The position numbers and the translations under genes were made by a program. The notes beneath the pieces were generated by a model. That model searched no databases, was not told where the DNA came from, and saw nothing but the letters and a program-made list of their open reading frames with translations. A stretch of DNA of 64,000 nt from assembly GCA_947034885.2 (NCBI GenBank), contig OZ019759.1, positions 15,068,501-15,132,500 of the forward strand, read 5' to 3'. This document shows positions 16,782 through 60,436 of the stretch, piece by piece (position 1 is the first letter of the stretch; each line of letters opens with the position of its first letter). This stretch comes from Thuidium tamariscinum. Lineage: Eukaryota > Streptophyta > Bryopsida > Hypnales > Thuidiaceae.

Positions 16782-17165
16782 CAGGGTTGTCCGGACTCTA
16801 CGTCTTTTGTAAAATTACGCCCAAAATCTAGACGTTCGGACGTCTAGACGCAGCGGGCGCAGCGGACATTGGGTAAAAACGGCGGACGGCCTAATTACCA
16901 TGGCGGACAGCGGTTTTACCGACAAGTTTATTAGCGGACGGGAAAGCGGGACGGACGGGGGGGGGGGGTGTTAATTTGCGCGGACGGCGGGCGGACAGTG
17001 TGTATTTTGGCGGACAGCGAGAGGATGAGGCATGTGTAGACGGACGGCACGACGAATGGGAGGACCGATTGGCGGACGAGATGGCGAACGAGATGGCGGA
17101 CAAGCGGTTCGTTGGCGGATGGGACGGCGGAATGGGCAGACGACGGACGGCTTTAGACGGACCCC
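16782..17165 (+). repeat. GGACG-rich subterminal cluster, hAT-A end
   Basis: Begins at the hAT-type terminus, then a non-repetitive 60-bp block (ctcta...ttttgtaaaattacgccc), then dense GGCGGACGG, GCGGACAG and GACGGACGG words, almost all on the plus strand. The first ~490 bp (16782 to about 17270) align with 20214 to about 20698. Subterminal repeats of this kind are known transposase-binding sites in hAT elements. Binding here is inferred. Confidence 0.7.
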
Positions 17166-17244
17166 TTTTTATTTTTCAGCCCTCAACCTCAGGTCTTAGG
17201 GGGGCTCATAGTGTCCTTTAACATTCACATATTTATTGGGATTC

Positions 17245-18430
17245 AGGTTCGTGTACCTACAACATCCTAAGCGAATATTTAAACATTTCAATGTTCCTTT
17301 AGGTTCCCATTCATGAACCTACAACCCCTTAACCACACATTTAAACATTTCAATATTGAAATTGAATTAGGATTTGTGAACCTACAACCCCTTAGGGCTT
17401 AGGCAAATATTTTAACATTTTAACCCCTAAAGGACCAACATGTGTTTTTTGGCCGTATAGAAATTTTGGGCAGGTACGTGTGATTAGAAATTTGAATATT
17501 TTGGGCTGAAATTTTAATAGAAGGTGGAGGCGAGGAATATCTTCATGTGTACCAAATTTCATGACATTTGGAGATATGACTTAAAATTTATGGCCTAATA
17601 TGTTGCTTTTTTTGGTAAGTGGGCAGTTTGAGCAGATCAGAAAAAATCACTTTTTTTAAAAACGAAAATTTTAAACTGGTTTTCTACATTTATATATAAG
17701 TGGAAAGCTTTGAATCATTCCATTTCAATCAAAGAGTCAAAAGTTATGAGTTTTTTTTCTTTGCGAGCAGTAATGGTCTAATGGATTCTCCACTATCAAA
17801 GAAACTTCGAAGTTGTTTATTTCACTCAATTTTCAATATTTTTGTAAAAAAATAAAACCCTAGGATGTAGATTGATTATTACAACATTACAACCATTGGG
17901 ATTGTCATTTTTTAATTCTATAATTAAATTCTTAACAATTTAGTATTATGAATCATTCTCTACTTCTTTTTACTTACTATTTTTTTCCTATATGTTGTAC
18001 AATTCCAAATGACATGAAATTTTTTGAGCATATCTCCATCTTGTTTAGGAAACTGAATTCAAAGAGGCACTACCATTTTCAACATTTTTTTCTTGAGAAG
18101 TGAGCTTGTGAAGTGTAGCTGCCCGATTTTTTGCAGGATTGAAAAAATGGTTTAGGTGAATTTGAATGCTTATATCTTTTGATCCACATGGTGGAATTTT
18201 CTGAAATTTTTACCACATATTTTGTAGACATTATACTACAAGATCCTATGGTTACATGTGTCAAAAAATGTTTTTATCAAGAAAATTGGTAGTTGTACTA
18301 GAAATGGCAGTTTTCGAGCGTTTTTGGTGAATACATAGTCATGGAACTTTAGGGGTTAATCTTTTCTTCGATTCCCATTCGTGAAACTACAATCCCTTAG
18401 GCGCACATTTAAACATTCATATTGCATTTG
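17245..18430 (+). repeat. ~60-bp tandem repeat split by a MITE
   Basis: Units with the core gaacctacaaccccttag followed by a catttaaacatttcaat segment occur at about 17245, 17303 and 17360. One further unit lies at about 18370-18430, on the other side of the MITE at 17424-18355. The MITE therefore landed inside an existing array. Confidence 0.6.
17424..18355. mobile_element. TTAA-flanked MITE, copy 1 (932 bp)
   Basis: Bounded by TTAA at 17420-17423 and 18356-18359, with terminal inverted repeats CCCCTAAAGGACCA and (reversed) CCCCTAAAGTTCCA. No coding capacity. Copies of nearly the same length lie at 38119-39039 and 53525-54457, and altered copies are found in and beside hAT-B. TTAA targets with CCC-starting ends are typical of piggyBac-like elements. 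No transposase of that type is present here. Confidence 0.7.
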
Positions 18431-18577
18431 ATATCCAATACTCCGATTTTGCAAAGATGTTGTACCATTCATGAAAGACAAAAACAAACCTTGTTTATTA
18501 AAGTCTTCCTCAACAACAAATGATAATCACCTAGTCTTGGTATATATGAGCATCTAAAGCCCTAAACTTACATCCCT

Positions 18578-20213
18578 TCAATTAGAAGGACAATAATCAT
18601 CATCTCCTTTCACCTCTGTCCCACTACTCTCGCATCCTCGTCTGTATCCTACGTCTTCATCGTTCGATGTATTCTCCATACCATCTGATGAAGATCCTAC
18701 ACCTTCTACTTGCTTACTTCTCTTTGCTTTCCTTCACTTGATTGGCTTCTTGTATTCCTCTTTTACTGTCAATATGGCTTTGCTAATTTCTTCCCTAGAA
18801 CTTAGACGTGCGACCAGTTTCATTTTCCACTTCGCAACAGGTAGGCATGCATGAAGGGGGGTTCTACCTGCATTCAATTTCTTCACTGGTGAAACCGTGA
18901 AAGGCTGCATAGGTCTTTTTTTATTACCTTCATTGCCTACTTTGACCTCTAATTTCACTACTTGGGGACATCCATGAATGATTATGTTTGTGGCCCTCGA
19001 AGATTGCAGTGGAGAGGCTGCTGATTTCAGATTGCATCATGGTGGTGCGGTGTGCAAAACTAGTTTACGTTTCATTTGTGTCAATGTCACATCTCCATCA
19101 TCATCGGTGGATGATAATACAGTGGCAGTAAATTCAATGCAAGGCTGCTTTGCCTTGCCAACATTAACAAGCCGATGTCCAAGCCCTAAGCTCCTTGAAC
19201 TGTCCGGAATTTGGCTACTAGTTCCAAATATGGCACCCTGTGCACCGCTTTGAGGTGGTTTTGGGGAATCTTGCATGAGCTCTTCTCTACGTTTGAGTGT
19301 ATTGCCAAAGCTTGGACCCTCGGCCTCTTCTACACGTTTAGTACCATTTTCCTTTACTGCAATTGGATTGTCGGTACCCGTTATGGATTCACCATTGTTC
19401 TTGCTTTTGAGCGCCTTTCTGGAATGCACATTTGTATTGATCGGTACCTCTTCATTGTTCGTACAATACCATTCTCCATCATTTTCTTCATCATTATCCT
19501 TTTCTTGAACCCCTCTTGTGGATGGAGATTGACAAATACGAATGCCTTCATCCTTGCCACCATCCCCACCATTGGGAAGTATTGTCCCATCCGCCTCCGC
19601 TATCTTTACAAAAGCGTCCTCTTTCTGCGATGGAATAGATTCGCTATTCAAAAACCCGGATCTATCCACGAATCTTGCTATATGAGGTTCATCCTCACCA
19701 TACTCATCATTCTCCTCATCGGATTGAAAGTCATAGATGCTTGTATTATTGCCTCTCCACCCACCATTTGTTTGATTAGGACTATGGTATGTTTCGTCAT
19801 GCAAATTGTCCATGTCGTTGTCCTCGTCATCTTCATCCAGTTGGTCAAGTGGATGAGGTCCATCATCAATGTCTTCCGCATTGCTTCCCACATCGGAGGG
19901 CTCATAGTCCACATTGTCTCTGTACCATTTCTTCTCATCCTTGTTCTTCGATGCGCCCACAACTTTTGAATTGGTGTACACATACACTAAGTTCGCTGCC
20001 CGGGTTGTTGCCAATTTGTTCCGAGATTTGTTGTGAACATAAGAGTAGCTACTCTAATTTTGTTCACATACAGATGATGACACCGGTTGGGCCAAAATCC
20101 TCTTGGCAATGGGAGCAATTAGCTTCCCACATGCACCTTCAAAATCCCACTAAGCATGGGCCGACAACATTTGTTCTTGTGGCTCCAACATGTTGTCGAA
20201 TGGAGGTTCCCTA
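18578..20213 (-). pseudogene. hAT-A transposase, 3' part
   Basis: C-terminal half of a hAT transposase gene cut at 20213 by hAT-B. Near 20040-20200 the minus strand encodes the hAT dimerisation region (LSAHA, stop, WDFEG..., IAPIAKRILAQPVSSS, VHNKSRNKL, LVYVYTN). Two tag codons stand where the hAT-C copy has W. A very acidic tail follows (about 19900-19700), then a basic tail (KKRPMQPFTVSPVKK, GRTPLHACLP) with a TGA at 18734. The alignable frame ends at 18578-18580. The hAT-C copy at 57280-58839 has the same layout, so the long tail is a family trait. The plus-strand 252-codon frame over it is a shadow. Confidence 0.8.
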
Positions 20214-20590
20214 CAGGGTTGTGCGGACTCTATGTCTTTTGTAAAATTACGCCCAAAATCTGGACGTCCGGACGCAACGGGCGCAGCGGACATTGGGTAA
20301 AAATGGCGGACGGCCTAATTACTGTGGCGAACGGCGGTTTTACTGGCGGACAGGTTGTCGGACGGCAAGTTTACTAGCGGATGGGGAAGCGGGACGGACG
20401 GGGGGCGGATGGATTTGCGCGGACGACGAGCGGACGGCAAGTATTTTGGCGGACGGCGGGAAGACAATGAGTTTTTTCATAGGCGTAGTGCGGACAGGGC
20501 ATGCGTAGACGAACAGCACGGCGAACGGGCGGTCCATTGGCGGACGAGACGACAGAATGGGCGGACGACGGACGACAAACGACGAGCACC
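20214..20590 (+). repeat. GGACG-rich subterminal cluster, hAT-B left
   Basis: Near-copy of the hAT-A end cluster: the same terminus, the same ttttgtaaaattacgccc block, then GGCGGACGG-type words. It abuts the broken transposase exactly at the target duplication. Confidence 0.75.
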
Positions 20591-20699
20591 TTTATATTTT
20601 TTAGGCCTCAACCTCGGGTCTTAGGAGGCTCATAGTGTCCTTGAACCTTCACATATTTTTGTGATTCAGGTTTGTGTACCTACAACATCCTAAGCGAAT

Positions 20700-22098
20700 T
20701 TGAGAGATACGTTCAATTGTGACTAATGCCCTTTGAAGCATTAGTCACATTAGTCACAATTTAGTATATTTGCCACAATTTTTGCATGGGTAACCAAAAT
20801 TTTCTAAATTTTTTTATACATGCTTGGCATGATGAGGGACACCTACTTGCAAATTCTCAAAAGCAAAGGAAACTTTTAGAATTTTATTCAATTTTTTGAT
20901 GGTTTTGACTTACAACCCAAAAGAAATAAAATTTGAAGTCACTTGTCCAATTTCGAATGTCAATATGCTTCAATAGGATGCATTGAAAGTATTTGGAGAT
21001 TTTCAAAAAGAATTGAAATAGAAAAGGCTAGAAATTTGGGAGATATGTTCAATTGTGACTAATGTGACTAATGCTCTTTGGGGCATTAGTCACATTAGTC
21101 ACAATTTACTATATTTGCCACAACTTTTGCATGGGCAACTAAAATTGTTAAAATATTTTTATACATGCTTGGCATGATGTGGGACACATACTTGCAAACT
21201 TTCAAAAACAAAGGACACTTTTAGAATTTTGTGCAATTTTTTGATGATTTTGACTTACAACCCAAAAAGAAATAAAATTTGAAGTTACTTATCCAACTTC
21301 GAATGTCAATATACTTCATTAGGATGCATTGGAAGTATTTGGAGATTTTCAAGAAAAATTGAAATTGAGAAGGATAGGAATTTGGGAGATATGTTCAATT
21401 GTGACTAATGTGACTAATGCTCTTTGGGGCATTAGCCATATTAGTCACAATTTACTATATTTGCCACAACTTTTGCATGGGTAATTGAAATTTTTTAAAT
21501 TCTTTTATACATGCTTGGCATGATAAGGGACACCTACTTGCAAATTTCCAAAAGCAAAGGACACTTTTAGAATTTTGTGCAATTTTTTGATGGTTTTGAC
21601 TTACAACCCAAAAAGAAATAAAATTTGAAGTCACTTGTCCAATTTCGAATGTCAATATGCTTCAATAGGATGCATTGAAAGTATTTGGAGATTTTCAAAA
21701 AGAATTGAAATAGAAAAGGCTAGAAATTTGGGAGATATGTTCAATTGTGACTAATGTCACTAATGTGACTAATGCTCTTTGGGGCATTAGTCACATTAGT
21801 CACAATTTACTATATTTGCCACAACTTTTGCATGGGCAATATAAATTTTCTAAATTCTTTTATACATGCTTGGCATCATGTAGGACACATATTTGCAAAT
21901 TTTCAAAAGCAAAGGACACTTTTAGAATTTTGTGCAATTTTTTGATGATTTTGACTTACAACCCAAAAAGAAATAAAATTTGAAGTTACTTGTCTAACTT
22001 CGAATGTCAATATGCTTCATAAAGATGCATTGGAAGTATTTGGTGATTTTCAAGAAAAATTGAAATTGAGAAGGATAGGAATTTGGGAGATATGTTCA
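20700..22098 (+). repeat. ~345-bp satellite, four direct units
   Basis: Units start at about 20715, 21051, 21397 and 21743 (periods 336, 346, 346) and end at 22098. Each unit contains a 50-bp palindrome, TTGTGACTAATGTGACTAAT then GC, a CTTTGGGG-type loop, and the reverse complement. It can form a hairpin of about 22 bp. The array ends where the next GGACG cluster begins. The same unit, inverted, forms the array at 25846-28262. Confidence 0.85.
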
Positions 22099-23008
22099 AT
22101 TGTCGGACATGTGGCGTCCGCCTCAGGTCGTCCGACAACAGGCCGTCCGCCTCGGAAATCGTCGACCGGACCTGTCGTCCGACAGCCCCGTTGTGCATCT
22201 GCCCTTCCGATGTCCCCGTCCGCCCTACCACCACCCAGCGTCCGCCCTGCCGACCGCCCAGCGTCTGCCCTTCGGCCCTACCCATCCGCCCTGACGACCG
22301 AGTGGGGGTCCAACAAAGGCGTCCGCCCTACTGACCGACTAACCTTCGCCGAAGACCACTCAGATTTCAAGTCCAAACTCAACATTGGATTCCATAAGTG
22401 AAAACTTGACATTGGATTCTACAAGTCCAAACTCAATATTGGGTTCCCCAGAAGTCATATTTAAAGCTTGAACCCTTAAAGGACCATCAATATACTTTCA
22501 CCAAAAGCGCTCCAAAAGACCAAAACTGTCATTTCTAGTACAAGTACCAAAATTTTCGGAAAAAAACTTTTTTTGACATATTTGACCATAGGATATTGTA
22601 TTATATAGTATCAAAAGCATGTAGTAAAAATTTCAAACATTTCCACCCAGTGGATTGCAAGATATAAGCATTCAAATTAACTAAAATCATTTTTTTGACC
22701 TTGTGAAAAGCAAGGCAGGTGCACTTCACAAGCTCACATTTCTATGAAAAAATGACCTAAATGGTGGTGCTTCTTTGGATTTTTTTTCCTAGACAAGTTG
22801 GGCACATGCTTGAAAATTTTCAAATCATTTGGAATAGTACATTATATAGGAAAAAAAGAGTAAGTACGTAGTAGTAGAGAATGATTAAACATACTAAATT
22901 ATTTACAGTTAAAATATGGAATTGAAAATTTCCAATCCCAAATTCTCAATAGTCGAAAATTTGAAATGTTGTAATAATGTATCAACATCCTACGATTTTA
23001 TTTTTGTC
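22085..23008 (+). repeat. Left arm of hAT-B central inverted repeat
   Basis: This stretch is the reverse complement of about 24921-25858. It includes a CGTCC-rich cluster (22105-22375), the words attggattccataagtg and caatattgggttcccc, and most of a TTAA-type MITE. Similarity stops at about 23008 (cctacgattttatttttgtc versus ...tttttctagg). With the satellites the inverted symmetry spans more than 2.3 kb per side. Confidence 0.8.
22105..22375 (-). repeat. CGTCC-rich cluster inside hAT-B, left arm
   Basis: Dense CGTCCG, CCGTCCGCC and GTCCGCCC words (the opposite strand to the clusters at the ends). No TATAAG box and no gene follow, so it does not look like a promoter here. The proline- and arginine-rich open frames across it come from composition. 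Confidence 0.7.
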
Positions 23009-23426
23009 CAAAAATATTGGAAATTGGGTAAGATAAAGGATTTCGAAGTTTATTTTAGAGTAGGAAATCCCAAACTCTCCAAAAACAAAAAATCCACATA
23101 ACTTTTGACTCAGTCATCAAAATGGAATGATTCAAAACTTCACGCGTATAGAAAATTCTAGAAAATCAATTTGTGGAATTCTTGTTTATGAAATAAGTGA
23201 TTTTCTCTAATTTGCATGAAATGCCCAGTTACGAAAAAAAAGTAACATATTACGCTATAACTTCTGACTTGTATTTTCAAATGTCATGAAAATTTGGTGC
23301 ATATGAAAGATCTTCCTCGCCCCCACATTCTATTCAAATTTCAGCCTCAAATCTAAAAATCCCCGCTCGTAGGTACCTGCCCAAAATTTCTATACATCCC
23401 AAAGAAACAGTGCGGGCTTTTAGGGG
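22483..23426. mobile_element. TTAA-type MITE, altered copy in hAT-B
   Basis: Starts CCCTTAAAGGACCAT after TTGAA and ends GCTTTTAGGGG before TAAA, so the TTAA flanks are degraded. The interior aligns with the minus strand of the MITE at 17424-18355 (accataggatcttgta, gcattcaaatt, cacttcacaagctca words). Confidence 0.55.
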
Positions 23427-24911
23427 TAAAAATGGGAAGCGTTGGAAAAAGCATCCAATGTTCAGTGTATGTGTGAAATTGAGTTTCATTCCGCACATTT
23501 AAAGAAAATAAGTCCTAAACCCTATACCCTATCCGAATAGCATCGACGTCCACTTCTGTAGAGTGTAGACAAGCCCAAACCCTAAACCCTAAATCCTAAA
23601 CCCAAGCTTCTTCATCATTTTTGCATTATGGGTGTCATATTAAATAATAAATAGTGAAAGTAAATTGATGAATGATCCAAGGATTCAACACATTATTAAT
23701 TAAAAATATATATGCACCCTACTTTAATAGAGAAAACATATATTCTTTACATATTTCTAAATGCAAACTAGTAAGGGATAACATTATTTGAAGTACACTC
23801 CTTCATATTCACATTCACAGATTCACTTACATTCAAATGAAAGATTCTATAATTTTTCACATTTTCAAATCTTTTTTCAATTATAATTGCATCATTTTCA
23901 AATTTGACTCATCCTCTTATGCAATCTTGAATGTCATCATCTTCCAACTGTAGAATTGTAGAAAGTATGGTGATACATTTTTCTAATTTGTTTAGAAATT
24001 GAAATATTAGGCCCTTACAAGTTACAACTTAAGAGTTGAGAATGTCTTGCAATAAAATATGGTTATAAATCTCTCCCTATATTGTTAACCCCTAAAGGAC
24101 CAAGGCCATTTTTTTGTTACAAACCACTTAGAACTGCCATTTTTGTTGCGTTCACTATAAGAAAATCAAAAAAATACTTTTTTTTGGATCTAACCGTAGG
24201 ATCTTGTACTTTATTTATCTAGGATAATGTGGTAAAAATATCAGATGACTTTGACCGCTATTCGTGGAATTTTTTGGAACTATGGAGTATGGACCTTGAA
24301 TTAAAATTTTTGAAGGAATTTGAAGAACTTAGAACTGAGTTGAAAGTCTAAGACAAAAATTTCAAGAAAAATAGGCTTGATTTTCATTATTCAAAAAATA
24401 GTTAAGTACAAGTGAGTCCAAGATTGAAAGAAAAACTAAATCATTAATAGCTCTAACATAGAATTGAAACACAATAATCTCAATGGTGAGATTGTTCTAG
24501 CTTTTTTCAACCCCCCGTCCCTTAATTTCAATATTTTGAGTTCATTGGATCATAACTGTTGCTCTTGGGCATCAATTGTGAAAAAAATTACATTCCATGG
24601 AAGATAATCAACTTTTTTATCTTTTGAAGAAGTTTGTAAAAACGAGGATCAAATTTGAATTTCAGCCCACAAGTACTAGCACAAATCACATGTTTCCCCT
24701 AAAGGGCCAAAAGTGAATGATCCTTTAGGATTTCAAATTTCAATTGGAATTCCATTAAATTTGAATATTCTTTTCTCATGGGAGGTGTGTTACTATGTTT
24801 GGAACAATTTGAATCAGCTGAATTTCAACAATTGATATTGACAATTTCCAATATTTAAGACTAGTATCATTATAATTTCCTAGAATTACAAATTCTTTCA
24901 AAAGAGATTAA
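23170..24911 (+). repeat. Central spacer R of hAT-B, copy 1 (uninterrupted)
   Basis: About 1.74 kb between the two inverted arms. A second copy lies at 34795-36160 plus 60445 to about 60845, where hAT-C splits it. Contents: the 3' end of a MITE, telomere-like CCCTAAA words (23505-23605), AT-rich spacer, and a further MITE beginning at TTAA 24085-24088 whose end is deleted (about 24737). The uninterrupted sequence accccccgtccctt at 24510-24523 is the empty site for hAT-C. No coding capacity. Confidence 0.8.
23505..23605 (+). repeat. Interstitial telomere-like words
   Basis: Clustered ccctaaaccctaaatcc and variants, similar to Arabidopsis-type plant telomere repeats. It is present in both copies of spacer R (also 35155-35265), so it moved with the repeat. 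It is not a true chromosome end. Confidence 0.6.
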
Positions 24912-24920
24912 TTTATGATT

Positions 24921-25858
24921 CCTAGAAAAATAAAATCGTAGGATGTAGATACATTATTACAACATTTCAAATTTTCGACCATTGAGAATTTGGGATTGGA
25001 AATTTTCAATTCCATATTTCAACTGTAAATAATTTAGTATGTTTAATCATTCTCTACTACTACGTACTTACTCTTTTTTTCCTATATAATGTACTATTCC
25101 AAATGATTTGAAAATTTTCAAGCATGTGCCCAACTTGTCTAGGAAAAAAAATCCAAAGAAGCACCACCATTTAGGTCATTTTTTCATAGAAATGTGAGCT
25201 TGTGAAGTGCACCTGCCTTGCTTTTCACAAGGTCAAAAAAATGATTTTAGTTAATTTGAATGCTTATATCTTGCAATCCATTGGGTGGAAATGTTTGAAA
25301 TTTTTACTACATGCTTTTGATACTATATAATACAATATCCTATGGTCAAATATGCCAAAAAAAGTTTTTTTCTGAAAATTTTGGTACTTGTACTAGAAAT
25401 GATAGTTTTGGTCTTTTGGAGTGCTTTTGGTGAAAGTATATTGACGGTCCTTTAAGGGTTCAAGCTTTAAATATGACTTCTGGGGAACCCAATATTGAGT
25501 TTGGACTTGTGGAATCCAATGTCAAGTTTTCACTTGTGGAATCCAATGTTGAAATTGGACTTGAAATCTGAGCGGTTTTCGGCGGAGGTTAGTCGATCGG
25601 TAGGGCGGACGCCTTTGTTGGACCCCCACTCGGTCGTCAGGGCGGACGGGTAGGGCCGAAGGGAGGACGCTGGGTGGTCGGGAAGGCGGACGGCGAAGTC
25701 AGTAGGGTGGTTGGCAGGGCGGACGGGGACATCAGAAGGGCGGATGCACAGTAGGGCTGTTGGACGACAAGTCCGGTCGACGATTTCCGAGGCGGACAAG
25801 CCGGTTGTCGGACGACCTGAGGCGGACGCCACAGGTCCAACAATTGAACATATCTCCC
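24921..25858 (-). repeat. Right arm of hAT-B central inverted repeat
   Basis: Reverse complement of the left arm (22085-23008). It includes a MITE portion, the ttgggttccccagaagtc region and a GGACG-rich cluster at 25565-25840 that mirrors the left CGTCC cluster. Confidence 0.8.
25565..25840 (+). repeat. GGACG-rich cluster inside hAT-B, right arm
   Basis: Mirror of the 22105-22375 cluster (GGGCGGACGG, GAGGCGGACG words). It has no TATAAG box and no gene on either side. Confidence 0.7.
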
Positions 25859-28262
25859 AAATTTCTAGCCTTCTCAATTTCAATTTTTTCTGAAAATCTC
25901 CAAATACTTCCAATGCATCCTAATGAAGCATATTGACAATCGAAGTTGGACACATGACCTCGAATTATTTATTTATTTTTGGGTTGTAAGCCAAATGCAT
26001 CAAAAAATTGCACAAAATTCTAAAAGTGTCCTTTGCTTTTGGAAATTTGCAAGTAGGTGTCCCACATCATGCCAAGCATGTATAAAAAAATTTAGAAAAT
26101 TTTGGTTGCCCATGCAAAAATTGTGGCGAATATACTAAATTGTGACTAATGTGACTAATGCCCCAAAGGGCATTAGTCACATTAGTCACAATTGAACATA
26201 TCTCCCAAATTTCTAGCCTTTTCTATTTCAATTCTTTTTGAAAATCTCCAAATACTTCCAATGCATCTTTATGAAGCATATTGACATTCGAAGTTAGACA
26301 AGTGACTTCAAATTTTATTTCTTTTTGGGTTGTAAGTCAAAATCATCAAAAAATTGCACAAAATTCTAAAAGTGTCCTTTGCTTTTGAAAATTTGCAAAT
26401 ATGTGTCCTACATGATGCCAAGCATGTATAAAAGAATTTAGAAAATTTCAATTACCCATGCAAAAGTTGTGGCAAATATACTAAATTGTGACTAATGTGA
26501 CAAATGCCCTTTAGGGCAATAGTGACATTAGTCACAATTGAACATATCTCCCAAATTTCTAGCCTTTTCTATTTCAATTCTTTTTGAAAATCTCCAAATA
26601 CTTTCAATGCATCCTATTGAAGCATATTGACATTCGAAGTTGGACAAGTGACCTCAAATTTTATTTCTTTTTGGGTTATAAGTCAAAATCATCAAAAAAT
26701 TGCACAAAATTCTAAAAGTGTCCTTTGCTTTTGGAAATTTGCAAGTCGGTGTCCCACATCATTCCAAGCATGGATAAAAATATTTAGAAAATTTTAGTTT
26801 CCCATGCAAAATTTGTGGCTAATATAGTAAATTGAGACTAATGTGACTAACGCCCTAAAGAGCATTAGTCACATTAGTCACAATTGAACATATCTCCCAA
26901 ACTTCTAGCCTTTTCTATTTCAATTCTTTTTGAAAATCTCCAAATACTTCCAATGCATCCTAATGAAGCATATTGACATTCGAAGTTAGACAAGTGACCT
27001 CAAATTTATTTCTTTTTGGGTTATAAGTCAAAATCATCAAAAAATTGCACAAAATTCTAAAAGTGTCCTTTGCTTTTGGAAATTTGCAAGTAGGTGTCCC
27101 ACATCATGCCAAGCATGTATAAAAATATTTTAAAAATTTCAATTACCCATGCAAAAGTTGTGGCTAATATAGTAAATTGAAACTAATGTGACTAATGCCC
27201 CAAAGAGCATTAGTCACATTAGTCACAATTGAACATATCTCCCAAATTTCTAGCCTTCTCAATTTCAATTTTTTCTGAAAATCTCCAAATACTTCCAATG
27301 CATCCTAATGAAGCATATTGACAATCGAAGTTGGACACATGACCTCGAATTATTTATTTATTTTTGGGTTGTAAGCCAAATGCATCAAAAAATTGCACAA
27401 AATTCTAAAAGTGTCCTTTGTTTTTGGAAATTTGCAAGTAGGTGTCCCACATCATTCCAAGCATGAATAAAAATATTTAGAAAATTTTAGTTTCCCATGA
27501 AAAATTTGTGGCTAATATAGTAAATTGAGACTAATGTGACTAACGCCCCAAAGAGCATTAGTCACATTAGTCACAATTGAACATATCTCCCAAATTCCTA
27601 TCTTTTTCAATTTCAATTTTTTCTGAAAATCTCCAAATACTTCCAATGCATCCTAATGAAACATATTGACATTCGAAGTTGGACAAGTGACCTCAAATTT
27701 TATTTCTTTTTGGGTTGTAAGTCAAAATCATCAAAAAATTACACAAAATTCTAAAAGTGTCCCTTGCTTTTGAAAATTTGCAAGTAGGTGTCCTACATGA
27801 TGCCAAGCATGTATAAAAGAATTTAGAAAATTTATATTGCCCATGCAAAAGTTGTGGCTAATATAGTAAATTGTGACTAATGTGACTAACGCCCCAAAGA
27901 GCATTAGTCACATTAGTCACAATTGAACATATCTCCCAAATTCCTATCCTTTTCTATTTCAATTTTTTTTTAAAATCCCCCAATACTTCCAATGCATCCT
28001 AATGAAGCATATTGACAATCGAAGTTGGACACATGACCTCGAATTATTTATTTATTTTTGGGTTGTAAGCCAAATGCATCAAAAAATTGCACAAAACTCT
28101 AAAAGTGTCTTTTGCTTTTGGAAATTTGCAAGTAGGTGTCCCACATCATGCCAAGCATGTATAAAAAAATTTAGAAAATTTCAATTGCCCATGCAAAAGT
28201 TGTGGCAAATATACTAAATTGTGACTAATGTGAGTATTGCACCAAAGGGCATTAGTCACAAA
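25846..28262 (-). repeat. ~345-bp satellite, seven inverted units
   Basis: Same unit as 20700-22098 but on the opposite strand. Its palindromes start at 26138, 26484, 26830, 27175, 27523, 27869 and 28217 (periods 346, 346, 345, 348, 346, 348). The regular period but variable unit sequence suggests unequal exchange among related units. Confidence 0.85.
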
Positions 28263-28894
28263 TGACAAAATTCCTTGTGTGGGGCCCTGAAAAATTCATG
28301 GCAATTTTAATTAAAATCATGACATAGACAAATCGTGATTCAAAAATGTTATTAACCCCAAAAGGACCCCCCAAATGCACTTCAAAATACTAAATACTTG
28401 TCCCCAAAGGAATGTCAAAAATCAAAATCTTCATCATTAATTTTTTTTTTAAGAAAATCAACTTGTTGATCTTTTTGTAAACTTGTTCAAGTAATCAAGT
28501 ACATTGTTCTAAAATTTTATTGTGAATTTCCCCACCAATTGCAAGTTCAATGTGCCTAAAATCGCCCACTTTCTCAATTGTACACTACTTGTATATATTG
28601 CTTTTTGTAGCCTTCAGCAATGTACAATGGGTGTACATTGTAGGTGGTGGGTGTTTTCAAAGCCCTATGCCATTTCAACTTCAAAAATTCATAACTAATT
28701 CCACGAAGCTTCAAAAAATATGAAACAACTTGGGTTACATGTCAATTCCACTTGTCTTTCAAAGGCAATTTACTGGAAAATATTTTAAGACGTTTCCCCT
28801 CCCCAAAATTCAGTTTCAGCTCTTAAATGATCAATTTATTGACTAGTTACCTTATACGGTGAAAAGTTTTAAATTTTTTTTCACACATTCTCAT
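28263..28894 (+). other. hAT-B right subterminal block
   Basis: Non-repetitive AT-rich block just inside the right terminal cluster. Its part at 28670-28850 (cataactaattcc, atgtcaattccacttgtctt words) aligns with 45145-45310 and, more weakly, with 60010-60170, the block inside the right end of hAT-C. This links the right ends of hAT-B and hAT-C. No coding sequence. Confidence 0.55.
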
Positions 28895-34789: not shown

Positions 34790-34794
34790 TAGAA

Positions 34795-36600: not shown

Positions 36601-36760
36601 ATCCAGTGCCTCGAGCTCTGTGAGCCCCTTTCAACTTGGTGAGATGGTTGTGATTAAAACTTGAATACTTTAATAGTATTGAGTTTTAATTATTATTTGC
36701 TTTTGCGGGCCCCGAAATTCCCATCACCCTAATTTTGGACTTTGGGGTAATTTTATTACC

Positions 36761-48889: not shown

Positions 48890-49170
48890 CAGACTTCAAC
48901 GCGCAGACAGAGCCATTGGACAGGCGGACGGGCGGTCGGCATCTGCGACGCGCGGACGAGCGGACGAGAGGTGCGGACGCGTGGTTTAGGGTTGAGCGCA
49001 CAGACGAGAGGTTCGGTAGGCGGTTTTAGGGTCGGGTGTGGACGGCGACGGACTGTCCGCCCTCGCGGACGGTTGGGGCCGCTTCGGGTCGTTCGGGCGG
49101 ACGGTCGGTGCCGACCCAAGTTAGGTTCGGGGTCGAACGGGTATAAGGGCGGACGGCGGACAAATTTCTT
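48890..49170 (+). promoter_or_regulatory. GGACG cluster and TATAAG of RING-H2 gene
   Basis: Plus-strand GGACGG words (gcggacgagcggacgag, ggcggacgggcggtcgg) run to GTATAAGGGCGGACGGCGGAC (TATAAG 49142-49147). The gene's likely ATG is 166 bp downstream. Confidence 0.6.
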
Positions 49171-49307: not shown

Positions 49308-52300
49308 ATGGCAAGTGAGGGTGATGAACGTGGTGGGGGAATAAATCCCGCGGGTGGTGACAATCGAAGGCATAAGCCAAAGGGAGCCAGTCACAAATTA
49401 CATTATGAGATTTTGGATGACCCAAACATCAAAGCGGAAAACGGATGGGAGGATGAGGCAACACCGTATTGGTCTTCCAAAATGTGCAAAAAATACGTGA
49501 AAATGTACCACATTGACAAGTTGTGGCCTAGGGAGGCCCATGAACTCCATACACGTGGGTTTTTTTGCAAACCCACCAACTGCAACAACGTGCATATTGT
49601 GCATCGCGCTTTGGAGGTTTGGCGGGCCCTCTTTGGAAAGAAAGTAATGAGTAAAGGGTACATAAACTACAGCTTGGCTTCCATGGTGTATGCAGAATTG
49701 ATATTGGAACGCAAGGTGGATTGGAGCACGTATCCGACGACAGCATCAACTCCATTTGTACAAGAAATGAATGGAAAAGACATTCCCGATTTGTACAATC
49801 CTCAAGGAGGGCCAAGTGAGGTACCGAAGCCCAAAAGAGTATTAAAAAATACTAGAAAAATTGAAACAAAAGTCTCAGAGGTACCAAGTGATGGACCACG
49901 CTTACAGCCTACACACACTTTGAGGACAATGGAAGATACTGAAGGTGAAGGTGTGGAAGGAGAAGTGTTTGCAACTCCTCCTACGGATTTAATATGCACA
50001 TCAAATGTTACGACGGTGGTTGAATAGGGCATTATTGAAGATATACAAAGTGGGAAGAAAGAGGGTGGGCCCCCATTGGCTCGATGTGAAGGTAGTGAAG
50101 GTACAGAAGAGGTAGCCGAGGGAGAAATTGCAGAGGCCAGTGCTATAATTCATGATCTTATTGATAGTAATGCTCTCGACATCTACGCGGATGTACATTC
50201 AAAACCATCATATTTGAGCAAACCGAGCGTTTCCAGCCCCGTACAGAGCGCGAGAATTGAAGCGGCTATCGCCAAAAAAAATGGAGAGGCATCTCATGGA
50301 AAAGGAAAAGAAGTAGTCATCGATGTTGAAGTCATCCCCAACCAATATCCGCATTTGTCCACCTTGAACACGTCACAATTGGAGGCTCTTTCGAACATGC
50401 CGAATGCCGCAGAGCTGGAACGGCTGTTGGAGGCTTCAGTTATGTTTGGGTCTTACCTTCTTGACCTAAACCGATTGGAAGACACAAGTGAGGCCAACAC
50501 AAGCAATGCAACCCAAGGTGAAGTCAATCGTCGCGGTTGGGCAAGTGTTGCTGAAATCCAAGTGACATTGGCAAATCTAGGTCGATTTGTAGCTGAAGTA
50601 TCTCCGCAACTTATAGAGGTGGCACAGGAGTTTGCAAAATTGTCACCTGAATTGTTGACAAGTACATTGACGTTTCATAAGTTCACCGAGTCCTTGTTTC
50701 CATTTTTGGACAAGCGCTTCGAGGACAAGCGCCAATTGGTGGCCTTCTTGGAAGAAAATACAAAGTTGGTGGCCTTGCAAAAAGAATTGAAGGGAACCTC
50801 AGACGAAATGGTAGAGCAATTGAGGACTTCTAAGAATACGGCACAATTTCAGGTTGCAACAGTGAAATGGCAAAGTGAGCGTATTGAAGCTTTGGAGTTA
50901 GAAGTTGGGACATTGAAGGACGTAATCAAAAAAGCTGAGTTTCCCAAAGCTAAGCAAAAAGATGGAGCTAAGCATTTCAGTGGCAATGAGAAAAACAAGA
51001 TACAGGAAGTGACACCTGTAGTGGCCATTGAAAATCGCGCATCTTCATTTCAAGATGCTTCCATTCAAACAGAATGCCATGAAGTTGATGAATTGAAGCA
51101 GAAAGTGGAGAAGCTCACCGAAGAGAACGCGTCTTTGCAGAGTGAATTGCAACGACTGGAGCATGTTGTTTGATTGGATGACTACCTTCCAAAGAGTAGC
51201 AAAGACAATCGATGGTTGGCATGGATTCAAAAACTAGAAGACAAACCAACCGTAGTTTCGCGAGCAATGAAAGGGCTTCTCAAATTGGCAGGAAAATCGG
51301 ATGAGCAACAACAAATTATAGAATCTTCATTGATGAGTTTGAGGAAGAGGTTTGAAACACATCCAAAGGGGACTACAGAAATCACGTGTTGGGGAGACAT
51401 GGACGCGATGTTCGAGCGGTTGAACCACACAAAGAAAGAAGAATCGCCCCACATCAATTGGGCCTTGGAGGTAGAAGAAGGTTGGATTCCGTACAACACT
51501 CTTTCGGCACACATCAAGCACAATGAGAAGACAGTGGTGCATGCTTCTCACACTTCTCGAGGGATCTTAGAAGGTAAATGCAGCATTTGTCAAGGTCCAT
51601 TTGGTCCCGAGGGAGCCCTAACTATGGGCCAATGTCGTCACACTTTCCATGTGACGTGCATAATCAAAGCCTCACTCGTTCGCTCGGTTTGTCCGGAGTG
51701 TCGTTCTCCTTTGAGTTCCAGGTTTTACGAAATGGTTGGGACCTTGGAATGTATGCCCCCTAGTCACGAATACAATCGATGGACCCTTCCACTTGATCAA
51801 GCCCTGGTTCACTTCCAAAATTATATACATTGGGAAAAACCTCTCACGTGGGATTCATTGGAAGAGAAGCATGGGTTGTACGACGACTCAATGGTGCCGC
51901 TGGATCCCTTTGTGTGGATGACCAAAGATCAAGAGGTGGAATTGCGAGCAAGGGGTATTGATGACGACGAAGCTCGCAAATTGTTTTGTCGAGGCATGGG
52001 TGGGCATTGGAGCATAGACCATCACAAGTTCTTTCGATTTCCAGAGAAGGAAGTGATCAAAGGACCAGATGGCAATTGGGTGGATGTGGAGCATACAAAA
52101 GAGTTGCAAGAGCGATACGGGGCGTACAATCACACATTGATAGGGAGGGCCCTCTTCTTGTCAAAGTTGGAAGAAGCTGCCAAGGTTCGAGCTCTTGTAG
52201 AGTTAGATGGGGATTCCAACTCCTCACAGTCAATTGTGGAAGTGGCAGGGGCTTTCGATAGGAGGATGAACGAGGCCGTAATGTCTTTTCGAAAATTTTT

Positions 52301-52619
52301 AGTGGGAGGAGATTGCCTCGGCCCGCACTGGTTTTCCACTGGAGATGTCAATGTAACACTGAACTTGATGGTAGCTTCAGTAGATGATGCCTTGGAAGCA
52401 TTAAAGGCACATGAAGTGGATCTGCCTCAGAAGCAAAAGAATAAGCGGAGGGTGGAAGATGAGGATGACTTCTCTCCAGAAACAAAAAGACAATTCAGTG
52501 CCGCTGACATGGCAGTGGCTTCGAGACGGTCCATTGGCGAAGGAAGCCCCAATCCTCACACTCGCCGTACAAGTGCAAGACTTAGGGATAGAGAGGGTCC
52601 ATCTCATGTTACACCGTAG
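49308..52619 (+). pseudogene. hAT-C RING-H2 / coiled-coil gene
   Basis: One frame throughout with two stops: TAG 50025-50027 and TGA 51171-51173. ATG 49308 (MASEGDE) is chosen over 49227 for its context (gtcATGGca) and conserved domain distance. Part 1, residues ~47-131: the domain shared with the 358-aa protein (CKKYVKMYHIDKLW...AELILERKVDW), then an acidic linker. Part 2 (50076-51170): a helical domain and a heptad-rich region. Part 3: RING-H2 at 51579-51701 (CSIC...CRHTFHVTC...CPEC), a conserved C-terminal domain (LFCRGMGGHW, FFRFP, LIGRALFLSKLEEA) and a basic NKRRVEDEDD segment. E3 ligase function is inferred from the RING. All eight zinc ligands are kept. The second stop also exists at the same place in the hAT-A copy, so parts 2 and 3 may be separate ORFs. 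Confidence 0.75.
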
Positions 52620-53520: not shown

Positions 53521-53524
53521 TTAA

Positions 53525-54457
53525 CCCCTAGAGGACCACGGCCGTTTTTCAACCCAGAAGGCCAAAACCACTCGAAACTGCCATTTCTGCTTCATTCATC
53601 AATGAAAAACAAGAAAACTAAATTTTTAGAATCAGAACATCGGATCTTGTACTTTACTTAAGTAAGATCATGTGGTGGAAATTTCATGAAGTTTGACCGT
53701 ATAGATAGGAAGATATGAGCATTCAAAGTTGGAAAACAAAGTTTTCTTAAACTCTAGTTTGCAACTTCAAATGACTTTGTCCTCCATTTTTGTAATTTTT
53801 TTGCACTACAGACCTTGAATTTAAACTTTTTTCTATTGAGAAATTGAGGTAAGAGCTTAGGAAAAAAAATTCAGAAAAAAAAGTTTTTTTTTTCATTCTT
53901 TAAAAAATTGTCAAGTAGATGTAGGTCCAAGATTGAAAGAAAAAGTAAATTGCAAATATCTCATAGATTGAACTGAAACACAATAATCCCAATTGTGAAA
54001 TTGTTTTAGCAAACAAAACCAACCTTGTCCAACATTTTTTTTTTAAAATTGTGGAAATTGCATTCACAAATGAATCCTATAAGTTATTTTTTCAAGAAAA
54101 TGCTTAGATTGCCCGAAAAACAAGATTGTTCATGACTTTCACATCACTAATCCAAATGGAATGAATCAAAGCTTCACTTGTAGACAAAAATAAAATCAAT
54201 AAGAAAAAAAAAATTAATTTTTTAATTTTGAAGTTTTTGTAGATTTTTTTTTCTGCCCGACGACATGAAAATGATATTAAAGATGGCATAACTTTTGCTC
54301 CAGTCACCAATTGAAAAAGAATCATATTCCCATAGAGCTAATCAAGTTTTCTATCTGAGTTATGTGAAAATTTCAAGCAAATTCATTCAAAATTGAAGTG
54401 ACAAGTACCTGCCCAAATTCTTGAAGTCCCTGAAGTGGACTCTTGGTCCTTTAGGGG
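53525..54457. mobile_element. TTAA-flanked MITE, copy 3 (933 bp)
   Basis: TTAA at 53521-53524 and 54458-54461. Ends CCCCTAGAGGACCACGG and, reversed, CCCCTAAAGGACCAAGA. The length is within 12 bp of copies 1 and 2. Inserted between the RING and transposase genes of hAT-C. Confidence 0.75.
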
Positions 54458-54461
54458 TTAA

Positions 54462-55034: not shown

Positions 55035-55300
55035 TGGATGCGTCCGCCTCGTCGAGGTCGTCCGATCTCGGCCGTCCGCCACTCGCCGTTGTTCGCGCGA
55101 TTCTTCCGCCACAGAAGGCCGCCCGATCGGGGTCCATCCGCGACCTCTCGCTGTCCACCAACCCGTTCGCGTCGGGTTGTCCATCTGATCGGAGTACCCT
55201 GTCGGGCCGTCCGCAGTTGCGTCCGCACTGTCAATTGGGATTGTCTCCCGTCCGTTGCAATGGTCACAAAGAGCAACCTTAGAACTCAGGAGTATAAGTC
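55035..55300 (+). promoter_or_regulatory. CGTCC cluster and TATAAG of hAT-C transposase
   Basis: CGTCCGCC-type words at 55035-55265, then GAGTATAAGTCTC (TATAAG 55293-55298), then a leader that aligns with the hAT-A copy in reverse (31220-31345). Relative to the gene, both transposase promoters carry CGTCC on the coding strand, while the RING and kinase promoters carry GGACG. Confidence 0.6.
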
Positions 55301-55555: not shown

Positions 55556-58500
55556 ATGAGCAAGGATTGGTCTTCTTGGTATGGCGCCCCTTCAGCTAGG
55601 AAAGTACAATGCAAAGCCTGCAACCTAGTGTTTGCAAAAAAAACATGCCGTATGTTTAGCCATCTTGGTTATGAAGGTGCATCGGGGTCTCGTGATTGAG
55701 GAATCAATCTATGTCCACGACTCACATCCCAAATTCAGAAGCTATTTCGTCAGTGCAAGGGGGTAATCCCACGAAGAGGTGAAAACGAGAAGTTGGGTGG
55801 AAACGAGAATTTGGGTGGAAACGGGATAGTGGAGGCCACGGTTGTAAATGATGCAGCAAATGAGAGACCCTTGACACCGTCAATACGTCTTACACCAGAA
55901 GATTCTTGTATAGTACCAAAAGAGATTGTCCGCGTGTCTTCTGGAGCACTTGCAAGTACTCAAGCATTTGATGAAGGAGACACAGGGGTAGGATCAACTA
56001 GTAGGCCTTTGGTGCAGAGGCGGATAGGAGATGGCTTTGAAGAAGCGAATAGACGGAAATTGCATGCAGTGTGGGCTAATTTTTTTTATGCTGCGAACAT
56101 ACCATTTTCGGTGGCACGGAATGCAGCATTTAAAGAAGCGGTGAAGAAAACGGCTGAGTTTCACAAACCCTATACCCCACCGTCATACCATGAATTATGA
56201 CATAAGTTGCTTGATCAAGTGAAGGCAGACATTAAAGTGAATATCAAGAAGCAAATAGAAGACAGCATTAGGAAGTTTGGAGCAACATTGTTTATTGATG
56301 GGTGGACTTCGGCGGCAAATCACCCATTGGTAAATGCAATGCTCGTGTCTTCTACGGACGAGCAATTCCTAGGATCGATCGATACAACAGGAAAAGAGAA
56401 GAATGCCGCCTATTTGGCCTCCATATTGGAAAAATTCATAAAAGAAGTGGGTCCTTCCACTGTAGTACAAATAAGCGCAGATAATGCGTCTATGAATGAA
56501 GCCGCATACAACTTGGTATCTCAGAAGTACCCTCATATATTTTTCCAGGGTTGTGTGGTCCATGCCTTGAATTTATTACTGAAAGATTGGGGAAATGAAC
56601 GGTGGATTGAGGAGGTCGTGGGCAATGACCGTAACGTAGTGAAATTCTTCAAAAAGAGGCACATGCCTCTTGCAATATTTCGAAGGTACTCGCCGGAGTG
56701 CATGTTGTTGATGGCGGTGGAAACTCGGTTTGCTTCCAATTACAACATGGTGGACCGTATGTTGAAGGTCAAGGGGAAGTTACAACAAACGGTGACGGAC
56801 CCAGAGTGGGAAGAATACGTGAAAAAATTAGGGCGGAATACCAATGCTCGCAATGTGTGCCGAAGGGTGAAGGACATCATTTTGAACGAGCATTTTTGAC
56901 GGCGTTGTCAAAATTTCAAGGATTTATCGGCTCCAGCGGTACATGGTCTACGCGATTTGGATGCAAAAAGGCCATGTATGGGGAAGGTGCTACATATCAT
57001 GAAGAAAATACAGAAGCACGTTTTGTCGTTGGACGAAGCACCTTTTAGTTTGTCCTTGGATTTAGCCATCCAACTACAAGAAGCCTTTCACGAATGGCGA
57101 GCGATGGTAGAGACAGATCTACATTATGCAGGGGCTTTGTTGAATCCCTATCTTCTTCACGACAAAGAGCTTGCTAATGATCAAGATGCAATGGATGCAT
57201 GCAAGCGTGTTTTAATGAAAATATGTGCCACAGAAGAGTATGCCGCTGTTGTGAAGGAATTTGTAGCCTTTCGACATAGGGAACCCCCTTTCCACAATAT
57301 GTTGAACCCCGACGAACAACAATTGTCGGCGCATGCTTGGTGGAATTTTGAGGGCGTGTGCGGGAAGTTCATTGCTCCAATTGCCAAGCGTATTTTGGCC
57401 CAACCGGTATCTTCCTCTTCATATGAACGAAATTGGAGTAGCTATTCATTTGTTCACAACAAATCTCGAAACAAGTTGACGCCACAGAGAGCACAAGATT
57501 TGGTGTATGTGTACACCAATACTAAAGTCCTTTCCGCATCTCAAGAAAATGATGAGAAGAAGTGGTACGAAGAGCAATTCGAGTATGTAGATATGGAAGA
57601 GTCCATGTCAAAGGATGAGGGTGGTGAAGATCATGGCCATGGAGAAGAGAGAGATCCCCTATTTGATGATGAATATGATGCGGAATACAATGTGTCTAAT
57701 TTGGTTGATGAACCATCCCAAGACCCTCATCATAATGATGAAGACTTTGAAGACAATCCGTTAGATATCTACAATTTTCAAGCAGACGAGGACAATTACG
57801 ACTGTGATGAGGGTGTCCCATCGAAAGCTAAATTTATGGATGGAACTAGAGTATTGAGTAGTGAGAATGTTTGAGCACATAGTCGGGACACTAATGTGAC
57901 AATGGAAGAGAGAAATGGGGCAATGATGAACATCGATGGGACTTCGACCCTAGATGAATTGATTCCAATTTCTAAATGTCCATCGCCAGTAGGGATCAAA
58001 GCAGAAGAACTTGGCAAACAGAACGACTTGGGAGACAGTGGAGTGAAGGTGGACAAAAATGTGGGTGATACAAGTGTTGCATTTGTTGAAGTATTGGCGT
58101 GTAAGAAAAGCTGTCTTGCGAGTACCGAGAAAGGTAAAGCACGGGGAGTAGCAACACATATAGATGTAGGTATGATGGAGTCTGGGAGCCCCATGTCATT
58201 TGAGAATGGCAAAGGCAAGAAGCCCTCGTACAAGATCCAACCCTACCCCCACGTAGCGGTCCTCCACGCATACTGTTCAAAACCGGCAATGCAAATTTAG
58301 GTGGTCTCGGTAGTTTACGCTACGGAAATAAGGATCCACTAGAAGATCAAATGTTGGAGTCCATATTTGGTCTACGTTCGCTGAAGTCATCGGATCGATC
58401 ACTTTCTTTGGGCGCAAATGAGATCATCATTCCAAGCGGATCAAAAGCAAGACAACCAATAATGAAAGAGTCCAAGAAAGCTAGAAATAAAAGAATACTG

Positions 58501-58839
58501 GAGGCCTTTGCAAAATCACCATCGAAGCGGCAAAGTCTAGGTCGAACCCCCCTTGATGTATGTGAACCTTTTTCACAAAGCAAAGTGAAACCGGTTAAGG
58601 GTCTTGAAAAAGGGATTGGGAAGTCTACACTAGGAGTTAGAGACATGGTGAAAGAGCAAAAGAAGGGTAGACGCAAGAGATCGCTTGCATCAAAGCAAAT
58701 ATCCGGAAGAAAAGAGCAAGCTCTATAGTCTTCGTCCAATAGTATGGAAAGCACAAGTAATGAAGAAGACTTGGAATGGGATTCAAGAGGTCATAGTAGT
58801 GGAGTTGAGGTGAGAGGAGACGTTGATTACAAGCCTTAG
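55556..58839 (+). pseudogene. hAT-C transposase (DUF659-type)
   Basis: Start ATG 55556 (MSKDWSSWY). BED-type zinc finger (CKACNLVF...HLGYEG). Core: IDGWTSAAN, ISADNASMN, QGCVVHALNLLLKDW, then DLDAKRPCMGKVLHIMKK. Dimerisation region: LSAHAWWNFEG, ILAQPVSSSSYERNWSS, RNKLTPQRAQDLVYVYTN. Then ~190 acidic residues and a basic tail with SPSKRQSLGRTPLDVC, shared with hAT-A. Stops are TGA at 55697, 56198, 56897 and 57872 and TAG at 58726. Where the hAT-A copy aligns, they replace R or W. A one-base shift lies near 58246-58251 in a C run. The last shared frame ends at 58837-58839. It cuts and pastes DNA in the family. This copy cannot act as it stands. Confidence 0.85.
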
Positions 58840-60244
58840 AGATTAAAGGAATGTAGACTTAGGTGTTTAGATATTCATGGTACATGGAGCTTGTAATGGA
58901 AATGGTTTGTTTGAACCTTTGAAAGTAATACAAGTTTTCATGCGCATGTTGAAAACGTCACTATGATTTATTGATCTTTGATTTCTTGGTTTCATGGTAT
59001 TCAAAAATAATGAACAAAAATTAAATTGTGACAATGTTTGATTCGTCTGTTGGATAAAACATGATAAGGTAGGTGGCCCAAATTGCAACAGTCTATTTAG
59101 AAGCATCCCTATAAAAAGCTCTGAAATCGACCTTTAGTGGTTTTGAAATGGACCCTAGACATTGTCAAAGCCTTATAAGGTTTGTTAGGTGTTGGTTTAT
59201 ACAACACATATGGTGTAATAACAGACAGGGTGGGTCAATTTCAAAATAAGAGTGGACACAAGAGAAGTGTCCATTTCATTTCTGCACGAAAAACATTTTC
59301 AGTTGAACATCTTCTTACTAAAATGCCTCTCAGTCACTTATAACTTCTTGGATTGATATGAAATTTTAGCTACACAAACTAGACTAGTAGGCGCACCTTT
59401 TCCAACAATTTTTTTTGGAAATGGACCTTATATGAAGAAGTTATAAGCTGCAGAAGTTCACTGTGATCCAAGAATGTCGGGACTTTGAAATTTGAATTGC
59501 TCCCAAACATTCAAAACAATTCGGATTGACATGAAAATTTTATCACAATAATTAGGCTTCAAGGAGAACATAACCCAACACATTTTATTGAAAACTAACA
59601 TTTGATGAAAAAGATACAGGCCCCCAAAGTTGCAGCCATCTCAATGTAGTTTGGTGAATTCAAATTGAACTTGTGAACTTTGATTGACTTCCAAGAAATC
59701 AGTATAACTTAGATTGTTCTAAAAAATTTATCACACAAACTAGAAGAGAGTGTGCAAATTTTCCAACAAGTTTTGTTGAATTTGGAAATCGGATACAAAA
59801 GTTATAGCACTTTCAATTGGACTTAAAATTATGTGAAGACAATGTTGGTTTTAGGGCTTAAGTTTAGTAAAGGTCACATTTAGGAACCTAAAGTATTACT
59901 TTTTGAGCGCTTCATTGCTTGTTTTTGGTCAAGCCCTGGTTTTTTACAGACTGCGCATGTGTGGGTTTTGCAAGACCTAGAATCACAAATAGATACCTAT
60001 GGTAGAATTCTTTGAAAATTCATAAGTAATTCATAAATGCTTGGAAAAATATGAAACCATTTGGTTTAGATTTCACATCAATGGTTCTTTAAATGAAAAA
60101 TAAAGGGAAATATTTTTGGGCATCTTCAACCCATCAAAAAAACCGAACAGCCCTTAAAGGGTCGCTTTTCAAGCCATCTACCTTACATGTTATTTGAAAA
60201 CCCTAAATCCAAAAATGCAATCTGAAGCTGGAAGCCTTTATCCG
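58840..60244 (+). other. Right flank inside hAT-C
   Basis: Gene-less. About 59330-59870 holds three loose copies of an attgacatgaaaatttt / cacaaactagaagagagtg block. 60010-60170 aligns weakly with the block inside hAT-B's right end (28690-28850). Confidence 0.45.
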
Positions 60245-60436
60245 CTCAATCGCTCATGCGGTCGACCGCCTGCTCATCCGTCCTCCCGTCCGCAGTCCCA
60301 ATTGCCCGTCCGTAGTTCCGTCCGCCGGTTGTCGAGGACAGCGTCCACTATGTCCACTAAGTTTGGACGTCCAGACGTCCGGACGTCCGGATTTTGGATG
60401 TAATTTTGCCCTGGACATACCGATTCGTCAACCCTG
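60245..60436 (-). repeat. CGTCC-rich subterminal cluster, hAT-C right end
   Basis: Read from the terminus inwards on the minus strand: CAGGGTTGACG, then the tgtccagggcaaaattacat block, then GGACGTCCGGACGTC and GGACGG-type words. The block equals the ttttgtaaaattacgccc block inside the ends of hAT-A and hAT-B, so these three termini are homologous. Confidence 0.75.

Follow-up and report, generated by a model that had tools for sequence, protein, structure and literature searches.

A 64,000-nucleotide stretch of the moss Thuidium tamariscinum (GCA_947034885.2, contig OZ019759.1, positions 15,068,501 to 15,132,500; hereafter the window, in whose own coordinates positions are given) holds three nested hAT elements, which we call A, B and C. 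Both A and C carry a gene for a RING-H2 protein together with a DUF659-type hAT transposase gene, in the same order. We propose that they belong to an old multi-gene hAT lineage in which the RING protein is an accessory factor, an overall explanation to which we give a probability of roughly 0.65. Judged from the sequence comparisons, the hereditary multi-gene lineage itself is very probable, and the RING protein probably serves the transposon in one accessory role or another; that it acts specifically against silencing is a tentative suggestion made by analogy, with the odds somewhat against it. The structure is well supported; the mechanism is one that we infer. hAT elements are usually described as short, single-gene transposons, mostly regarded as small and simple, and an inherited companion gene would be unusual among them.

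A RING-H2 gene and a transposase gene within one mobile unit

The gene set of element C comprises ORF1, a kinase-like gene, the RING-H2 gene and the DUF659/hAT transposase gene, the kinase-like gene alone being on the minus strand (Table 1). Both ends and a target duplication were established for C and for B, and one end for A. The termini of C are CAGGGATGACG and, inverted, CAGGGTTGACG. When the two flanks of C were joined, they matched an uninterrupted paralogue in B (23158-24917) with 92.9% identity over 1,783 columns, so that the insertion site of C is known both occupied and, in the paralogue, unoccupied. The ends, the target duplication and the unoccupied paralogue together place the RING and transposase genes of C within one mobile unit. 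A search for a second hAT nested in C, with ends of the form CAGGGNTGNC, found none inside C.

Element C was found to be inserted in the sequence next to the RING gene of A, and B in the transposase gene of A, where the breakpoints of B (20213 and 29414) coincide with a break in the transposase homology between A and C. On the minus strand A reads RING gene, transposase gene, 3' end. Searches with end and duplication patterns recovered neither the 5' end of A nor the other copy of its target duplication within the window, and no transposase gene was found in the 9,201 bp of B. The original prediction had given the order RING, transposase, terminus for both elements, on the plus strand in C and on the minus strand in A. 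Pfam domains, reading frames and the right end bear this out for C, the order in A holds as well, and the two end coordinates, 16782 and 60436, proved exact. The left end of C at 36161, its two further genes, its nesting and a motif shared by the elements are additions of the present analysis.

The RING-H2 finger of C was recognized by Pfam (zf-RING_11, E = 3.5e-8; zf-RING_2, E = 8.8e-8), and in a PDB profile search it matched RING E3 ligases (RING finger protein 24, E = 4.3e-7). The finger keeps its full set of eight zinc ligands (C C C H H C C C) in C, in A and in two relatives from outside the window (P0070 and P0064). Outside the finger, a long coiled coil is predicted (model residues 402-541), and two modules, one N-terminal and one C-terminal, are conserved; the alignment of the A protein begins at about residue 336 of the C protein. 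The C transposase matches DUF659 (E = 1.3e-31) and Dimer_Tnp_hAT (E = 5.2e-9). Three of its in-frame stops lie upstream of 57871 and the fourth is TGA at 57872; homology to a full-length relative continues in the same frame up to 58222 and in another frame to 58836. The A transposase gene matches DUF659 (E = 5.1e-34), is split by B and contains several stops and a frame change. The residues D...D...E, which we take to be the DDE positions, are kept in C, in A and in two linked transposases from outside the window; the one other linked transposase is a fragment with the E region only.

Divergence of A and C

The RING proteins of A and C share 49.0% of their amino acids along 471 residues and 29.2% along another 154 that lie upstream of these, and the three transposase pieces share 53.1%, 69.5% and 53.9%; the original prediction had called both genes pairwise homologous and well diverged, and so they are. 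Nucleotide identity is 69% over the two longest matching gene stretches. The ratio of nonsynonymous to synonymous substitution (dN/dS) is well under 1 in both genes, at 0.357 for RING (471 codons) and 0.232 for the transposase (759 codons). The proportion of synonymous differences (pS) is 0.591 (0.53-0.65) for RING and 0.635 (0.58-0.69) for the transposase, with overlapping intervals; these values are near saturation, so that their likeness is weak evidence, which counts against our reading, and the low dN/dS was given more weight.

Relatives outside the window

Searching with the transposase protein returned at least 38 relatives, and two RING searches returned at least 25 and at least 54, together at least 58. 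Each search scored at most about 8,000 candidates, and each cluster was represented by its longest contig. The viral_contigs collection gave no related loci for either protein, and the genome_contigs collection, searched with RING, gave none. Among the matches listed, the only organism-named one was a hypothetical protein of the moss Ceratodon purpureus for RING and a protein of the grass Festuca glaucescens (30%) for the transposase.

Three RING/transposase pairs were found on contigs of exactly equal size and the same source: P0064/P0031 (8,444; JGI), P0070/P0027 (17,649; ENA) and P0080/P0056 (45,926; ENA). When RING contig sizes were jittered by a factor of e^-0.3 to e^0.3, three matches arose in 9 of 20,000 sets, and three matches above 8 kb in none of 20,000. 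This test used 56 of the 58 RING contig sizes (P0081 and P0082 were omitted, having the same size as P0010 and P0014) and 37 of the 38 transposase contig sizes (P0055, 4,494, was omitted; no listed RING contig has that size). On the 8,444-bp contig, proteins of 1,102 and 1,048 residues would occupy about 6.45 kb if unspliced and would therefore be close neighbours, if equal size means one contig. The 45,926 pair resembles the A pair closely (RING, 89.6% over 202 residues; transposase, 88.8% over 511 residues).

In trees of the five loci, A and the 45,926 locus were grouped at 100% bootstrap in both genes. Larger trees, containing 28 of the 58 RING matches and 30 of the 38 transposase matches plus A and C, also joined A with 45,926 in both genes (support 1.0) and set A, 45,926, C and 17,649 apart from 8,444 (0.947 for RING, 0.969 for transposase); C and 17,649 fall in a wider clade without A in the RING tree (0.994), a grouping that is weak in the transposase tree (0.393). 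Across the five loci, the patristic distances of the two genes are correlated (r = 0.96), a value reached by 3 of 120 label permutations. Trees and distances, read together, suggest long co-inheritance, and occasional exchange between elements may have occurred.

GCGGACG arrays at element ends and upstream of genes

We counted 61 copies of the motif GCGGACG in the window, whereas 30 Markov sequences contained 1.0 on average and never more than 3; the stretches 1-16781 and 61400-64000 are free of it. Of these copies, 28 lie near the ends of A, B and C and 16 lie upstream of genes; a further 10 are in the interior of B, 2 in A coding sequence and 5 at 61171-61354. For C, the zones considered were the 600 bp upstream of each of the four genes, that of ORF1 being also the 5' end, together with the terminal 600 bp on the 3' side. 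Each of the 23 copies found in C falls within these zones, which total 12.4% of the element; 214 of 20,000 circular shifts do equally well. Over all elements, the observed count was never reached in 500 shuffles for 11 of the 12 zones tested; the zone upstream of the C RING gene, for instance, holds 7 copies (shuffled mean 0.19, maximum 3). Eight of the 12 clusters have a single orientation and four are mixed.

Proposed mechanism and its alternatives

In the mechanism that we favour, the transposase, with its DUF659 catalytic part and C-terminal dimerisation domain, would cut and paste the element and leave the 8-bp duplications. The RING-H2 protein would be an inherited accessory protein and not a chance capture, as the results on both genes support; it is a putative E3 ubiquitin ligase that may pair through its long coiled coil and may reach its targets through its conserved N- and C-terminal modules. 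Either this protein or the transposase might read the GCGGACG arrays as marks of element ends and gene promoters, and such reading would switch the element's genes on jointly and counter host silencing, as VANC does in VANDAL transposons. The most specific form of this idea, in which a hAT lineage independently evolved VANDAL-like counter-silencing, with the RING-H2 ligase at the arrays removing host silencing proteins locally and the genes forming one regulon, is drawn by analogy and is unlikely as it stands.

According to the original prediction, the RING gene is inherited as part of a hAT lineage. The mobile unit C, the low dN/dS, the three outside pairs and the correlated distances support this; the deeper branches of the trees disagree. 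In the five-locus trees, RING pairs C with 17,649 (95%) and the transposase pairs 17,649 with A and 45,926 (75%). Each gene's data disfavour the other's tree in the approximately unbiased test (p about 0.002 both ways, from 1,000 replicates, flagged as too few) and in the Kishino-Hasegawa test (0.025 and 0.044); the Shimodaira-Hasegawa test does not (0.40, 0.43). Further points weigh against our reading. The outside linkage is deduced from equal contig sizes and not from contig sequence, order or strand. The kinase-like gene and ORF1 are known from one element only. The genes of A and C are both broken by in-frame stops and frame changes, and in A by the insertion of B, so that there is no sign of present activity. 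As for the motif, coding sequence contains 2 copies and the interior of B 10, the zones were picked after the clusters had been seen, and the count of 3 in the kinase-gene zone was reached by a shuffle. The N-terminal module of the RING protein gave no fold match and was barely tested in this respect, and its putative tie to silencing is proposed by analogy to VANC.

Could the RING gene be ordinary host cargo, acquired independently or once recently and playing no part in transposition? DNA transposons are able to take up genes, and the Ceratodon purpureus protein might be the product of a host gene. Among the 12 RING contigs of at least 8 kb, nine have no transposase match among those listed by the searches capped at 8,000 candidates, which speaks for capture and against our reading, and which we weighed as neither support nor strong counter-evidence. 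Against capture stand the gene order shared by two elements whose RING proteins are 49% identical, the RING dN/dS of 0.357 and the three pairs outside the window, of which one belongs to a separate deep clade; simple capture is improbable. A local duplication with inversion would make the synteny of A and C weigh as one copy, and the two do lie within 45 kb on opposite strands. A single recent segmental inversion duplication, which the original prediction had named as fatal to its claim, was nevertheless rejected, since A and C are well diverged in both genes, C is bounded by ends and a target duplication of its own, and the nearest relative found for A is an outside contig at about 89%. The chance that one duplication produced both is minimal.

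A role for the RING protein as structural or catalytic partner of the transposase, in insertion or end pairing and not in escape from silencing, comes nearer to our reading, and MURB or TnpA offer functional parallels. The predicted coiled coil with its two conserved modules and the arrays close to element ends fit such a partner. However, the RING-H2 finger with its eight ligands and its E3 ligase matches would point to ubiquitin transfer, and arrays also lie upstream of internal genes; we regard this role as rather unlikely, yet as the most serious of the competing explanations. Alternatively, the arrays could be mere GC-rich promoter or end sequence that no protein of the element reads. The GC content of the zones (0.42-0.68), the shuffle that reached the kinase-gene count and the mixed clusters are consistent with this, whereas the 11 zones never equalled in shuffles and the predominance of single orientation are not, and we consider it distinctly unlikely.

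If our explanation is true, 24-kb multi-gene hATs with an inherited ubiquitin ligase would alter what a hAT can be and would offer a directly testable case of a transposon exploiting the host ubiquitin system. A motif common to ends and promoters makes the regulation open to binding assays, and the lineage bears on where such RING proteins originated in plant genomes.

Other features of the window

Table 1. Coordinates of the elements, genes and motif clusters in the window.
Feature	Position	Strand	Details
Element C, hAT unit	36161-60436	+	24,276 bp; both ends found; inverted ends, target duplication, unoccupied paralogue around 24510-24517
Element B, hAT	20214-29414		9,201 bp; inside A transposase gene; ends and target duplication
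A 3' terminus	16782-16836	-	CAGGGTTGTCCGG... read inward on the + strand; end pattern
C left target duplication	36153-36160		ACCCCCCG
C right target duplication	60437-60444		ACCCCTCG; one mismatch to left copy
B target duplication	20206-20213 and 29415-29422		GTTCCCTA and GTTCCTTA; one mismatch
Left flank (X) of sequence split by C	34789-36160		92% to 23158-24517
Right flank (Y) of sequence split by C	60437-60845		94% to 24510-24917
C RING-H2 protein gene	49308-52619	+	About 1,103 codons; ATG 49308; two in-frame stops (TAG 50025, TGA 51171)
C hAT transposase gene	55556-58839	+	ATG 55556; DUF659 and dimerisation domain; four in-frame stops; frame change
C ORF1	36761-37837	+	N-terminal module of RING protein; no RING; Gly/Tyr-rich tail
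C kinase-like gene	42767-44253	-	Two overlapping frames, 44277-43588 and 43648-42767; ATG 44253
A RING-H2 protein gene, in pieces	32555-34816	-	zf-RING_2, E = 3e-7; about 330 N-terminal residues missing; in-frame stops
A transposase gene, 5' part	29415-31115	-	DUF659; internal frame change
A transposase gene, 3' part	18578-20213	-	Past B insertion
GCGGACG cluster, C 5' end and upstream of ORF1	36276-36555		7 copies, mixed
GCGGACG cluster, upstream of kinase-like gene	44448-44494		3 copies, mixed; weakest
GCGGACG cluster, upstream of C RING gene	48924-49149	+	7 copies, one orientation
GCGGACG cluster, upstream of C transposase gene	55041-55220	-	4 copies, one orientation
GCGGACG pair, C 3' end	60287-60319	-
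GCGGACG pair, upstream of A transposase gene	31454-31498	+
GCGGACG cluster, A 3' end	16882-17072	+	4 copies
GCGGACG cluster, B left end	20306-20561	+	6 copies
GCGGACG cluster, B right end	28905-29386		9 copies, mixed

ORF1 resembles the N-terminus of the RING protein (37.6% amino acid identity, E = 1.2e-19), and its module gave a faint zf-C3HC (NuBaID) match under the Pfam cut-off (E = 0.017). The kinase-like gene matches Pkinase, also under the cut-off (E = 2.3e-5), and PDB kinases weakly (best E = 0.0012). It contains the sequences HNDLSPDN and DWG and a frame break, and is possibly a further inherited gene; no second copy was found within the window. Element C also contains a 229-bp near-perfect palindrome (41939-42167, 96.9%), near a 55-bp tandem repeat (42398-42604).

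In B, a 346-bp satellite forms inverted arrays (20718-22103, 4.0 copies; 25840-28260, 7.0 copies) on either side of 97% inverted arms (22239-23005 and 24926-25692), which gives B the look of a foldback-like hAT. A non-coding module recurs at 34789-36160, 23158-24517, 38115-39043 and 53521-54461 with about 70-77% identity, rising to 92% between the A and B copies; C has one copy after ORF1 and one after the RING gene. To the right of C, the region 61126-61409 has the sequence CAGGGTTTCAGG at 61126, a GCGGACG cluster (61171-61354) and a 79% match to the 5' region of C (36539-36610), and may be the start of another element. An open frame on the plus strand (63190-63969), without a Pfam match at E <= 0.1, is possibly an exon. 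Scanning the window gave no Rfam match at gathering scores, and NCBIfam matches only far under the cut-offs.

Comparison with known systems

No description of a hAT with an inherited RING gene was found among the matches listed from the titles and abstract starts of the open-access literature. The finger of our protein resembles those of RING-H2 E3 ligases (RNF24, RNF38, RNF165, Arkadia) in PDB profile and fold matches, and differs in belonging to a protein of about 1,100 residues with N- and C-terminal modules; in its relatives P0010 and P0006, no Pfam family reached the cut-off outside the finger.

VANDALs are Mutator-like, that is, of another transposase superfamily. Our transposase matches hAT models, and no Mutator model was matched by any of the 9 plus 20 proteins scanned from the window and from relatives, so that the comparison can at most mean that the two work alike, not that they belong together. 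VANDAL elements have several genes (VANB and VANC are named) and dense short motifs of one orientation in intron, intergenic, upstream and terminal non-coding sequence, as in the VANC21 motif of VANDAL21 (PMC5735166). The VANDAL motif guides an anti-silencing protein, and binding and loss of methylation have been demonstrated in that system. Our likeness to this Arabidopsis system lies in the multi-gene element and in the short motif that is densely repeated in its terminal and upstream non-coding sequence. The motif is a different one, and binding and demethylation were shown there, whereas only the motif sequence was read here.

The fungal ToxhAT, or ToxTA, is another cargo-bearing element. 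According to PMC12506042, this 14-kb element was first described with a hAT-like transposase and has been removed from hAT by its authors, who now place it near Tc1/mariner because of its 2-bp TA duplication. Element C, in contrast, is flanked by an 8-bp duplication and encodes a hAT transposase of its own.

The hAT superfamily itself (Ac/Ds, Tam3, Hermes) provides the closest likeness: 8-bp duplications, whose copies are alike at 7 of 8 positions both in C (ACCCCCCG/ACCCCTCG) and in B (GTTCCCTA/GTTCCTTA), ends of the plant pattern, DDE residues in C and A, and DUF659 with a C-terminal dimerisation domain in C. Hermes was matched weakly in the PDB profile search (E = 0.024). Four of the five ends, namely both C ends, the A 3' end and the B left end, fit the plant hAT terminal inverted repeat pattern [T/C]AGNGNNG (PMC6027215); the B right end, CAAGACTATG, deviates. 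Read inward at 29405-29414, this right end differs by four transitions from the left end, CAGGGTTGTG. By the sequence features tested, element C is classed as a hAT. The same survey detected no hAT homologue in the moss Physcomitrella and gave 7,144 bp (Gulliver) as its longest plant hAT consensus (PMC6027215); at 24 kb and with four genes, C lies far above that length.

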